Assembly: GCF_011752975.1 (NCBI RefSeq)
Contig: NZ_VWWP01000002.1
Span: 1 to 64,000, forward strand
DNA: 64,000 nt
Direction: 5' to 3'
From: Chryseobacterium sp. Tr-659
GTDB lineage: Bacteria; Bacteroidota; Bacteroidia; Flavobacteriales; Weeksellaceae
The position numbers and the translations under genes were made by a program. Below, one piece after another: positions 59,114 through 63,764 of this stretch (positions are counted from its first letter, which is position 1; each line of letters starts with the position of its first letter). The notes under the pieces are model-generated. The model searched no databases. It saw only the letters and a list, made by a program, of their open reading frames with translations, and was not told the origin of the DNA.

Positions 59114-59875
59114 ATGGAAATACAAAAATTAAACTGGGCAGGCATTCAATTAACTTCTAACAACAAAACTGTATTAATAGACGCAGCAGAAGACTTCTCT
59201 TACTACAAACCCGTTTTAGGAGATGCGGTGGAAGATCTTATTGTATTCTCGGATGATGTAAAAGCAGATTATATTCTGTTTACCCATTTACATCTGGATC
59301 ATTTTGATAAAGGAGTGATTGGGAAATGTTTAAAGAAAGACGGTAAGCTGATTGTGTATGCGGGGCTGGAGCATTTGGTAAGAAAATTTGTAGAAGATGT
59401 TGAAATGATTGTTTTGGATCTGAATGAAACTTTTACTGAAAACAATATTACCTTCAAACCTGTATTTGCAATGGATGGAATAGGGGAAATACAATCATCC
59501 TGGATCGTGGAAGACGGAACTACCAAAATCTTTCACGGCGGAGATACAATCTGGCATAACCAATTCTGGGCACTTGGAAAGGAAAATCCAAACATTGATT
59601 ATGCATTTTTACCTGTCAATGGTGTTGTGGTTAATTTTGAGATTATCGGGCTGGAATACAGTCCGGTTGCCGCTTCCCTTAATCTGAAAGAAGCCTTCAC
59701 GGCAGCTCATCTTCTGCATGCTAAAAAGCTTGTGCCTATTCATTACGGGTTGTTTGCCCATGAGAAATGTTATATTCCTCAAGAGTTTAGTCAGGAGGAT
59801 TTAAAGAACGTTTCAGAAGAAGTAGGGCAGGAATATCTGACTCTGAAGGACGGAGCCGTGTTGGCAAAATCTTAA
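59114..59875 (+). CDS. MBL-fold metallo-hydrolase
   Basis: The ATG at 59114 gives a 253-residue protein opening MEIQKLNWAGIQLTSNNKTV, which resembles the UlaG-like metallo-beta-lactamase-fold subgroup. The zinc motif is FTHLHLDHFDK (about residues 57-67, HxHxDH), followed by FHGGDTIWH (about 142-150) and PIHYGLFAHEKC near the end, which supply further metal ligands. Such proteins hydrolyse phosphoesters or lactones; the substrate is unknown. An upstream in-frame start at 59093 would add seven residues rich in Lys. Confidence 0.85.
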   Translation: MEIQKLNWAGIQLTSNNKTVLIDAAEDFSYYKPVLGDAVEDLIVFSDDVKADYILFTHLHLDHFDKGVIGKCLKKDGKLIVYAGLEHLVRKFVEDVEMIVLDLNETFTENNITFKPVFAMDGIGEIQSSWIVEDGTTKIFHGGDTIWHNQFWALGKENPNIDYAFLPVNGVVVNFEIIGLEYSPVAASLNLKEAFTAAHLLHAKKLVPIHYGLFAHEKCYIPQEFSQEDLKNVSEEVGQEYLTLKDGAVLAKS

Positions 59876-59908
59876 ATAATAGTACTCTGAAGAGATACGT
59901 AATTTAAA

Positions 59909-59974
59909 ATTCAATAGGAACGGGCTTTAGCCCGTTTTTTTTGAGATGGATGCTATTGGATTTAGCCAAAACCT
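59909..59974. repeat. Interspersed GGGCTTTAGCCC-type repeat element
   Basis: TCAATAGGAACGGGCTTTAG, then CCCGTTTTTTTT, then ATTTAGCCAAAACC. The first part is identical with the copy at 22745. It borders the tandem array. Confidence 0.8.
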
Positions 59975-60074
59975 ATTTAAAAGCTCCCATTATCATTCTT
60001 ATAGATGTATAACATTATAAGACGATTTTAGATTCCACGCTTCACTTCGTTCCGCTCTGAATGACAAGCATTGC

Positions 60075-61665
60075 GTAATTTAAACGTGCTTTAAATATCC
60101 GATGATCCACACACAAGAAGCAGAGAATTTTTCGTGTCCTCTTTGTCATTCCGTAGGAATCTTTACACAAAGTTATTATATGATGAGCATTTTGTTTTAT
60201 TAAGTTGGATTCCTACGGAATGACAATATGAGTGTTCCATTACTTTATTTAGGTATGTACTGCTTTGTTATTTCTATGTAATTGAAAATTTATATTTACA
60301 CGTAATTTAAACGTGCTTTAAAGATTGGATGATCCACACACAAGAAGCAGAGAATTTTTCATGTCCTCTTTGTCATTCCGTAGGAATCTCTACACAAAAT
60401 TATTATATGATGAGCATTTTGTTTTATTAAGTTGGATTCCTACGGAATGACAATATGAGTGTTCCATTACTTTATTTAGGTATGTACTGCTTTGTTATTT
60501 TTATGTAATTGAAAATTTAATTTACACGTAATTTAAACGTGCTTTAAAGATTGGATGATCCACACATAAGAAGCAGAGAATTTTTCGTGTCCTCTTTGTC
60601 ATTCCGTAGGAATCTCTACACAAAGTTATTATATGATGAGCATTTTGTTTTATTAAGTTGGATTCCTACGGAATGACAATATTAGTGTTCCATTACTTTA
60701 TTTAGGTATGTACTGCTTTGTTATTTTTATGTAATTGAAAATTTAATTTACACGTAATTTAAACGTGCTTTAAAGATTGGATGATCCACACACAAGAAGC
60801 AGAGAATTTTTCGTGTCCTCTTTGTCATTCCGTAGGAATCTTTACACAAAGTTATTATATGATGAGCATTTTGTTTTATTAAGTTGGATTCCTACGGAAT
60901 GACAATATGAGTGTTCCATTACTTTATTTGGGTATGTACTGCTTTGTTATTTCTATGTAATTGAAAATTTACATTTACACGTAATTTAAACGTGCTTTAA
61001 AGATTGGATGATCCATACACACACACACAAGAAGCAGAGAATTTTTCATGTCCTCTTTGTCATTTCGTAGGAATCTCTATACAAAGCTATTATATGATGA
61101 GCATTTTGTTTTATTAAGTTGGATTCCTACGGAATGACAATATGAGTGCTCCATTACTTTATTTAGGTATGTACTGCTTTGTTATTTCTATGTAATTGAA
61201 AATTTATATTTACACGTAATTTAAACGTGCTTTAAAGATTGGATGATCCACACACAAGAAGCAGAGAATTTTTCATGTCCTCTTTGTCATTCCGTAGGAA
61301 TCTCTACACAAAATTATTATATGATGAGTATTTTGTTTTATTAAGCTGGATTCCTACGGAATGACAATATGAGTGTTCCATTACTTTATTTAGGTATGTA
61401 CTGCTTTGTTATTTCTATGTAATTGAAAATTTAATTTACACGTAATTTAAACGTGCTTTAAAGATTGGATGATCCACACACGAGAAGCAGAGAATTTTTC
61501 GTGTCCTCTTTGTCATTCCGTATGAATCTCTACACAAAGTTATTATATGATGAGCATTTTGTTTTATTAAGCTGGATTCCTACGGAATGACAATATGAGT
61601 GTTCCATTACTTTATTTAGGTATGTACTGCTTTGTTATTTCTATGTAATTGAAAATTTATATTTA
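60075..61665. repeat. Seven tandem ~226-bp units with inverted palindromic arms
   Basis: Seven head-to-tail units start at about 60075, 60302, 60528, 60754, 60981, 61216 and 61442, each beginning GTAATTTAAACGTGCTTTAA. Unit lengths are 226-227 bases, except unit 5 (235), which has an added CA-repeat. Inside each unit are TTGTCATTCCGTAGGAATCT and its inverted partner GGATTCCTACGGAATGACAA, about 50 bases apart. Units differ by a few changes only; unit 7 has one base changed in its left arm (GTATGAAT). The array ends 7 bases before the GIY-YIG gene end. Confidence 0.93.
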
Positions 61666-61671
61666 TCCATA

Positions 61672-61992
61672 TTAAGACAGATCTTGAAACAGATAATTCA
61701 AAAACTCTAAGTTAGGATTGGTTGCTCTTATAAGATCAAGCTTTTTAATTCTTGACCAGTTTTTAATTTCTTTTTCCCGCTCAATGGCATGATGGATCCA
61801 ATCGAATTTTTCATAATAAATTAGAAATTCAATATTATATCTTGCTGTAAAACTATTGGTATTTAGCTTAGTTTTGTGCTGATGTAATCTCTTGTGCAGA
61901 TTTCCTGTCACGCCAGTATAAAGTACAGTTCTTCTTTTGTTGGTAAGAATATAGATATAATAAGTATATCTTCCTTCTGAAAATTCTATCAT
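61672..61992 (-). CDS. Small GIY-YIG nuclease family protein
   Basis: This 106-residue protein is a single GIY-YIG domain: YYIYILTNKRRTVLYTGVTG (residues 11-30) carries the YIY...YTG pair, followed by NLHKRLHQHK with the conserved Arg, a later Tyr and Glu (HHAIEREKEIKNW, about 67-79), and the C-terminal LIRATNPNLEFL. Single-domain GIY-YIG proteins are related to UvrC and homing nucleases and are DNA-cutting enzymes or of unknown use. It is directly bordered by the tandem array on one side and by a solo element on the other. Confidence 0.9.
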   Translation of the reverse strand: MIEFSEGRYTYYIYILTNKRRTVLYTGVTGNLHKRLHQHKTKLNTNSFTARYNIEFLIYYEKFDWIHHAIEREKEIKNWSRIKKLDLIRATNPNLEFLNYLFQDLS

Positions 61993-62346
61993 TTGTGTGT
62001 TTATTTTGAGATAAGGTACAAAAATGTTTTCAATAGGTTTTTAATTCACTTTTTAACGCGAATTATAAAATCCCCAACAACTAATCAAAATGCTGAGCAT
62101 GTATATTATTTCTATTCCCAGGACCTAATTAAAACTATATCGTCAATCTGATGAAGAGATGAAGTATTTATATTGTCATTCCGTAGGAATCTCTACACAA
62201 ATTAAGAGCTTGAAATCCTTTGAGCATATCAGGAACCCTGCTTCAAAATATTCTCCTAAAAGCTCCATACGGCTTCTTTATATTCCGGAAATAGCTTTCT
62301 GATACGAGCTTTTTTGCCTATTTTTACTTCACAATATAAATAATAC
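61993..62346. other. Intergenic region between GIY-YIG gene and secreted protein gene
   Basis: Apart from the solo element at 62171-62201 there is no gene. Bases 62041-62130 show no structure that I recognise. Confidence 0.5.
62171..62201. repeat. Solo arm of the tandem-array element
   Basis: TTGTCATTCCGTAGGAATCT followed by CTACACAAA reproduces the left arm plus the following bases of the array units (for example unit 2). It lies 179 bases upstream of the GIY-YIG start, so the gene is flanked on both sides by the same element. Confidence 0.85.
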
Positions 62347-62832
62347 ATGAAAAAAATCGTATTCACGGGAATAGCTGTCTTAGGAGGGTTTCTAATGGCT
62401 AATGCACAATGTAAAACTGTATCCACACTGGTAGAAAATTTTGATACCTGGAAAGATATTGACAAATGTTGGACTGCTCAACAGGGAAAAGCAATGCTTT
62501 ATGCAAATGATAAAAAGATCACTTTTTATTCAATGACCAGTCCGGGAGAAAATATGTATTTAGTGACTCCAAAAATTAAAGCAGGTACCTATACTCTTTC
62601 TCTCGATCTATCGGATAACGGGGGAGAAACAACATTAGAACTTTTCTCGATAAACAGCCCTGCTGATGCAAAATCTTATGTTTCAATCGCTAAATCTTCA
62701 AAGATAACCGGAGAGAAAAAGACATTTACTCTCTCTTTGAAAAAAGATACACATTTAGGCCTGAAAGTATTACTGAATGGCGTGCATCAGGCCGTTTATC
62801 TGGATAACTTTTCTTTGAAACCAAAAAAATAA
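62347..62832 (+). CDS. Secreted beta-sandwich protein of unknown function
   Basis: The 161-residue protein has a signal peptide (to about residue 20, ending ANAQ), a Cys pair region with VENFDTWKDIDKCWTAQQG (about 28-46), and a beta-rich body with MYLVTPKIKAGTYTLSLDLS and VYLDNFSL at the end. The last segment resembles cleaved-adhesion or carbohydrate-binding-like (DUF5017-type) folds of Bacteroidota, but I cannot assign one. It stands alone and ends in a terminator. Confidence 0.72.
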   Translation: MKKIVFTGIAVLGGFLMANAQCKTVSTLVENFDTWKDIDKCWTAQQGKAMLYANDKKITFYSMTSPGENMYLVTPKIKAGTYTLSLDLSDNGGETTLELFSINSPADAKSYVSIAKSSKITGEKKTFTLSLKKDTHLGLKVLLNGVHQAVYLDNFSLKPKK

Positions 62833-63744: not shown

Positions 63745-63764
63745 TTGTCACTCCGTAGGAGTCT
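63745..63764. repeat. Variant solo arm of the palindromic element
   Basis: TTGTCACTCCGTAGGAGTCT keeps the palindrome through paired changes (T to C on the left, A to G on the right) compared with the array arm, which suggests the hairpin itself is preserved. Confidence 0.75.

Follow-up and report, generated by a model that had tools for sequence, protein, structure and literature searches.

Among the closest described systems are REP/BIME and REPIN elements and the REPtrons, in which inverted palindromes flank the gene of a RAYT (TnpA-REP) transposase, many gene-less pairs lie elsewhere, and the gene itself is present at near one copy per genome. The REPtron enzyme is an HUH transposase of the Y1 type and its palindromes carry a GTAG tag. 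MITEs likewise consist of short inverted repeats with gene-less copies that are presumably moved in trans, and the gene linked to them encodes a DDE transposase. GIY-YIG homing endonucleases, which include enzymes of group I introns and free-standing ones such as the T4 Seg proteins, are encoded at or beside their presumed targets, some of them beside tRNA genes, and they are associated with a separate DNA-binding domain and with an intron or an interrupted target gene. Single-domain GIY-YIG proteins of the UPF0213/YhbQ type form a further group, for which we know of no link to palindromes.

A survey by Di Nocera, De Gregorio and Rocco (2013, PMC3733652) distinguished GTAG-tagged REPs, which are linked to RAYT transposases, from CGTC-tagged REPs. 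In that survey, in which transposase genes were monitored, a dedicated transposase is described as apparently absent for the CGTC-tagged class and no linked enzyme is given. The survey describes a tag that is unpaired and is often TGTC or CCTC, stems of 8–9 bp that start with AT, loops of 4–5 nt, a CCA tail and an arrangement that is mostly head-to-head dimers, and it names as members Neisseria dRS3, Rickettsia RPE-4 and RPE-6 and the repeats of many alpha-proteobacteria. Among the matches listed in a literature search that left subscription journals and preprints outside its scope, no paper linked such palindromes to a GIY-YIG nuclease, in agreement with the initial annotation of the locus described here, which knew of no described case.

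The DNA analysed here, referred to as the window, is a 64,000-nucleotide stretch of the Chryseobacterium sp. Tr-659 genome. Close to its end, Tandem Repeats Finder reported an array at 60074–61665 with a period of 226, 7.0 copies and 95% matches. All seven units hold an inverted, head-to-head pair of palindromic arms (TTGTCATTCCGTAGGAATC and its reverse complement) with their tags facing outward, together with a longer spacer. In unit 1 (60143–60226) the plus-strand arm at 60143–60161 and the minus-strand arm at 60208–60226 are 46 bases apart, and an arm scan placed the remaining pairs at 60370–60453, 60596–60679, 60822–60905, 61057–61140, 61284–61367 and 61510–61593, with one mismatch each in the plus-strand arms at 61057 and 61510 of units 5 and 7. 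Six bases separate the end of the array from the stop codon of a minus-strand open reading frame (61672–61992) that encodes a single-domain GIY-YIG nuclease of 106 amino acids. On the other, 5′ side of the gene, a solo plus-strand arm together with the nine bases that follow it in the array (CTACACAAA) is found at 62172–62200. Both the seven-unit array abutting the gene and the lone arm across from it had been pointed out in the initial annotation, and the repeat finder and the arm scan recovered them. A variant plus-strand arm at 63745–63763 (TTGTCACTCCGTAGGAGTC) probably belongs to the same family, with two compensating changes that preserve the hairpin. Two further repeats lie to the left of the array: a palindrome of the same general type at 60026–60070 (TGTCATTCAGAGCGGAACGAAGTGAAGCGTGGAATCT), which has short matches in other genomes of the genus at identities of up to 98–100%, and, at 59900–59982, a repeat built around a terminator-like core (CGGGCTTTAGCCCG), which is dispersed and matches very many sites in the genus.

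A single arm forms a small hairpin, ATTCC-GTA-GGAAT, whose folding was not distinct from that of shuffled sequences (z −0.9). The arm pair as single-stranded DNA is predicted to fold into one long hairpin, with z scores of −8.9 for unit 1 (60142–60229, −20.9 kcal/mol) and −8.4 for unit 2, the two units folded. The arms resemble the CGTC REPs, as these are described in PMC3733652, in their unpaired CGTC/TGTC tag (TTGTC in most window arms and dispersed copies read), in the AT start of the stem, in a small loop and in their head-to-head dimers, of which there are seven in the window and 14 among dispersed arms, with spacers of 17–43 bp, in 20 stretches from three genomes. They differ in having a 5-bp ATTCC/GGAAT stem and a 3-nt loop where the survey gives 8–9 bp and 4–5 nt, and in place of the CCA tail they mostly end in TAAGC, TC(A/G)(A/G)C or a near form. 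As stem length and tail both depart from the description, we regard the window family as CGTC-like and not as a strict member. It is also REPtron-like in its inverted palindromes flanking a gene kept at near one copy, with many gene-less pairs elsewhere, but is not a REPtron, since a GIY-YIG nuclease and a TGTC/CGTC tag stand in the place of the HUH transposase and the GTAG tag. Unlike in MITEs, each inverted repeat is itself a hairpin and the linked gene does not encode a DDE transposase.

In the 4.88-Mb, 35-contig genome we counted 85 arm matches at up to three mismatches and one match for a reversed control pattern, which excludes chance as the source of the arms. The window array and its solo arm account for 15 of the 85; the other 70 lie outside the cluster at 60–62.2 kb, so that most arms of this genome are not beside the window's GIY-YIG gene. 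Arms were also seen at or near the ends of contigs C2, C5, C11, C22, C32, C33 and C34. The assembly was therefore probably interrupted by arm arrays, and the true number of arrays may be higher than the visible one.

We retrieved 39 loci from 84,980 species genomes using the protein alone. In the 18 closest (L058–L074 and L077), the 53.3 kb lying no more than 1.5 kb from the gene contained 153 arms with up to four mismatches and the 283.9 kb farther away contained 5, a density of 2.87 versus 0.018 per kb, or about 160-fold. Arms flanked the gene on both sides in 14 of the 18, as palindromes do in a REPtron. At L058 they were found on one side only, and at L071–L073 the nearby palindrome was TGTCATGCTGAAAGCATC or a like form, two-sided only in L073. 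The initial annotation had set two patterns against a link between gene and arms, of which the first, arms scattered through related genomes with no enrichment at the gene, is not what these counts describe: the arms are spread, yet concentrated around it.

The second pattern, related genes lacking flanking arms, was addressed by a motif-free test that scored the longest identical stretch common to the two 300-bp flanks of a gene, with a threshold of at least 15 bp. The sample comprised 41 single-domain genes in 24 of 61 Bacteroidota genomes, with about 4 kb per side where the contig allowed; these were the 40 top-scoring genes taken in order, with a single gene from each cluster, plus one from genome G040 taken out of order. 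Contig-edge places and long open reading frames were skipped by hand, and L123 and L126 were removed for short flanks, leaving 39. The threshold was reached at 30/39 genes, 18/964 equal-length dummy intervals from the same regions and 0/17 uvrC genes, which likewise bear a GIY-YIG domain (Fisher, 5e-37 versus dummies and 3e-8 versus uvrC). The remaining nine sampled genes had no shared repeat of this length. The repeat is not always a palindrome, since 13 of the 30 were labelled with a palindrome of this general type, nine lay beside a tRNA gene and eight fell under neither label. Such palindromes occur widely in the genus (exact arms in 107 of 148 genomes), and a collection bias or a coincidence, namely an array grown by slippage beside an unrelated gene in a genome where palindromes are common between genes, might be suspected. 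We give this practically no credence, as the loci were retrieved by protein or protein family alone and the dummy intervals and uvrC genes were almost free of repeats. Small GIY-YIG genes are flanked by dispersed palindromes far beyond chance, and the window is not a one-off.

The same arrangement was found outside the Bacteroidota. From a plasmid collection we sampled 16 of 33 records matching the window's protein, one or two per genus, and the flanks shared at least 15 bp in 12 of the 16. Two-sided CGTC hairpins accompanied the GIY-YIG gene in Azospirillum lipoferum, Neisseria gonorrhoeae, Rhizobium CIAT894, two Shinella and Neorhizobium, as well as in Aeromonas, where the reading frame of the gene is broken. 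Two Sinorhizobium, two Sphingobium and a Novosphingobium locus had a long shared flank repeat and no two-sided match in the motif scan; at L228 the CGTC hairpins were one-sided, and at L229 neither a shared flank repeat nor a motif match near the gene was seen. Stems of 8–9 bp with 4–5 nt loops occurred at several Pseudomonadota loci, and a CCA tail likewise occurred at several loci of this phylum. A. lipoferum, Neisseria, S. meliloti and N. aromaticivorans occur both among these loci and in PMC3733652. Two-sided palindromes of this general kind were found in Bacteroidota, Pseudomonadota, Cyanobacteriota (Planktothrix), Calditrichota and Acidobacteriota, and in one Chlorobiaceae genome bin, in which the gene is broken. 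In A. lipoferum the palindrome-flanked unit (L217 2989–3282) is placed within the suf cluster, with sufB on one side and sufC on the other. Two of the records filed as plasmids, NZ_CP119140.1 and NZ_AP026896.1, are chromosome-like, at 2.2 and 4.9 Mb.

A tree was built from 113 proteins of 120 loci, after exclusion of those with broken frames (L074, L077, L086, L227 and L235) and those over 130 amino acids (L105 and L232). Loci were labelled using nine palindrome patterns, with a tRNA label overriding a palindrome label, which gave 65 palindrome, 17 tRNA and 31 unlabelled rows. The labels required 36 changes on the tree versus 74.8 when shuffled, a value as low being reached in 0 of 200 shuffles; this clustering is post hoc, as the nine patterns were written after reading the loci, which does not apply to the motif-free flank test. 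Three palindromes, ATTCCGNAGGAAT (16 genes), CATTGCGAGG (11) and CTGAGCTTGTCGAAG (4), each required a single change. The CATTGCGAGG and CTGAGCTTGTCGAAG groups were strongly supported and the ATTCCGNAGGAAT group was not (93/51; a single group in 90% of bootstrap trees), and two of the nine labels, CATTTCGA and CATCCCGA, clustered no better than shuffles on this tree. Paralogues with different palindromes were found within one genome in G062 (L236 and L250) and G083 (L239 and L241). Gene subfamily and palindrome family thus tend to go together, a match that we take as support and not as proof because near copies inflate the clustering.

A split with 100/99 support divided the tree into a clade of 85 genes, containing all 65 palindrome-labelled and 20 unlabelled genes, and a clade of 28, containing all 17 tRNA-labelled and 11 unlabelled genes. 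Flank repeats of at least 15 bp were found in 18/24 genes of the palindrome-type clade and 12/15 of the tRNA-type clade. The Tr-659 genome itself has two tandem GIY-YIG genes behind tRNA-Arg (C33:297264–297840; L056 7145–7930), where an exact 30-nt copy of the tRNA-Arg 3′ end recurs at 355-bp steps (L056 7190, 7545 and 7900). As the 3′ end of a tRNA contains the T-arm hairpin, a hairpin may be the target common to both clades. Longer series of tandem GIY-YIG genes at steps of about 360 bp were seen at L154 (G053 C34:6991–9748), with eight genes, and at L155 (G072 C1:3684282–3685602), with four genes beside four tRNA-Asp genes.

Within the genus, a close gene (at least 59% identical) was present in 34 of 148 genomes and occupied 35 places in all, of which six carry stops, so the gene hardly multiplies. 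Exact arms were found in all 34 of these genomes, with a median of 22, and in 73 of the 114 genomes without a close gene, with a median of 2 (Mann-Whitney 1.4e-12, a statistic that ignores relatedness). As a rule, a genome of the genus has one gene copy and many palindromes. Among the 114, however, 25 carried 10 or more arms, up to 62, so that arms either persist after loss of the gene or are moved by another enzyme.

If another enzyme did so, a RAYT or some other recombinase could be moving the palindromes while the GIY-YIG gene merely rides inside them. The Tr-659 genome does encode Y1 transposase matches, one strong and RAYT-like and one weak, both on contigs other than the window's. The flanks of the strong Y1 gene (C30:119011–119355; L057 7012–7356), however, share a different, inverted palindrome (CTCCTACGGAGCT), and no arm was found at up to five mismatches in the 14 kb around it; we therefore rejected this RAYT as the owner of the arms, and two enzymes in one genome appear to own separate palindromes. 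For the weak match (C2:50836), the nearest arm among those listed is 17 kb away. Since a passenger would also not be expected to have subfamilies that match palindrome families, we consider this explanation very doubtful.

We compared 19 loci and found several gene neighbourhoods, one of them shared by ten. Common ancestry at one place as the sole cause of adjacency is thus partly true, but further neighbourhoods exist. None of the genes neighbouring the array in the window was found near the 20 further copies checked, the exception being distant crp-like paralogues of about 30% identity.

A compact unit of about 400 bp in genome G173, consisting of a plus-strand arm, the gene and a minus-strand arm, adjoins a gene present in 147 of the 148 genus genomes. 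At the orthologous site a close nuclease gene is present in 11 of the 147 genomes, as computed from gene and neighbour coordinates, in one orientation in seven and in the opposite one in four. Gains, losses or a mixture of the two may underlie the occupancy of these 11 genomes. Of 30 loci retrieved at this site, five contained the gene, 14 lacked it but showed both flanks, and in 11 the gene was missing and the retrieved stretch showed no right flank. At the 14, the aligned flank ends were 29–108 bp apart versus 527 bp in G173, distances taken from the aligned ends, the displayed left boundaries of L255, L262 and L267 being hand-set. Empty and occupied sites are too diverged for a target-site duplication or a base-exact insertion point to be read. 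Dispersed arms and the ends of gene-bearing units have a common tail, TAAGC or a variant, and the bases outside the tag vary, so that the tag probably marks the outer boundary. These data support the suggestion in the initial annotation that the arms mark the ends of a small mobile unit, in that genomes differ in whether a single orthologous site holds an arm-bounded unit.

We looked for a clean empty site of the element in the window in the relatives G128, G096 and G153 and found none, and the compact unit of G173 was analysed in its place. The two genes flanking the array (window 59117–62832) are about 95–260 kb apart in these three genomes, and the array may therefore sit at a rearrangement junction. 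No GIY-YIG gene was present in 29 loci around the left neighbour or in 29 around the right one.

The GIY-YIG domain (Pfam PF01541, E 4.7e-14) is the only domain found in the 106-residue protein. The tyrosines of the GIY…YIG region, the arginine, the histidine and the catalytic glutamate of the superfamily are all present. In a 36-row alignment Y14, G27, R35, H39 and E73, which we take to be the residues expected for GIY-YIG catalysis, were invariant, and Y25 was nearly so. An AlphaFold2 model had a mean pLDDT of 90.2 and one compact domain, and the median dN/dS of 0.088 (45 pairs from ten genes) indicates purifying selection. Among solved chains, sequence comparison gave a single, weak match, the UPF0213/YhbQ-type protein of PDB 1ZG2 (E 0.036). 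An NCBIfam search yielded no family above the cut-off; its sole, weak match was a group I intron endonuclease model.

This last match, the existence of GIY-YIG homing endonucleases and their catalytic residues, shared with the window's family, raise the question of a homing element, whose nuclease would cut gene-less palindromes just to copy its own gene into them, so that dispersed palindromes would be targets or remnants and not products. A solo arm at the orthologous site in gene-less L254, a site occupied in relatives, is consistent with such targeting; a decayed arm lies there in gene-less L272. Efficient homing should, however, lead to the reverse of what the genomes hold, in which the gene is near one per genome and arms number up to dozens. 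The 106-residue, one-domain protein is encoded in an intergenic location, with no intron seen and with multi-copy palindromes on its flanks. We regard a homing element as quite improbable.

Our preferred reading, which we hold to be reasonably probable, is that the locus is a palindrome-bounded element whose GIY-YIG nuclease cuts cognate TGTC-tagged palindromes, thereby copying pairs into new intergenic sites and extending arrays. That the protein may cut or move these palindromes had already been suggested in the initial annotation. We infer recognition and cutting by the GIY-YIG protein, as well as the copying that follows, and propose that the system is a counterpart of RAYT-REP built on a different nuclease. 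Given how well a single strand of the inverted pair folds, the enzyme would probably recognise the palindrome in a hairpin or cruciform form and then nick or break the DNA there. To our knowledge, known GIY-YIG enzymes do not join strands, and the joining step is therefore left to repair, which, if templated by another palindrome copy, would transfer pairs without a gene in trans and, on rare occasions, the gene as well. Slippage or unequal exchange at broken palindromes could then lengthen the tandem arrays. The sister clade may act similarly on the hairpin-forming 3′ end of tRNA genes.

The main alternative is that the nuclease serves the host by trimming or resolving replication hairpins, and that gene and palindromes occur together because palindromes need policing, with no spreading involved. 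Such a role would fit the strong purifying selection, the near single copy per genome, the lack of any sign of self-multiplication and the folding of arm pairs as single strands. A policing enzyme would nonetheless be free to sit anywhere, and neither two-sided adjacency nor the presence and absence of whole units would be needed for its work, which leads us to consider this alternative unlikely.

Extending the preferred reading of a palindrome-bounded, nuclease-driven element to the family, we lean towards the view that the dedicated enzyme missing for CGTC/TGTC REPs is, in several phyla, a single-domain GIY-YIG nuclease, from the Chryseobacterium arrays to Neisseria dRS3. Such nucleases would provide a second, HUH-independent way of spreading palindromes, with a sister branch doing the same on the tRNA 3′-end hairpin. 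If this is true, two unrelated nuclease folds have reached the same arrangement of one gene and many palindromes, and a role would be available for many genes named only "GIY-YIG nuclease family protein". With a linked, conserved nuclease gene that tends to match its palindrome by subfamily, the question of an enzyme for CGTC palindromes, left by the 2013 survey, can be put directly to the test, for which a single small protein and a single oligonucleotide suffice.
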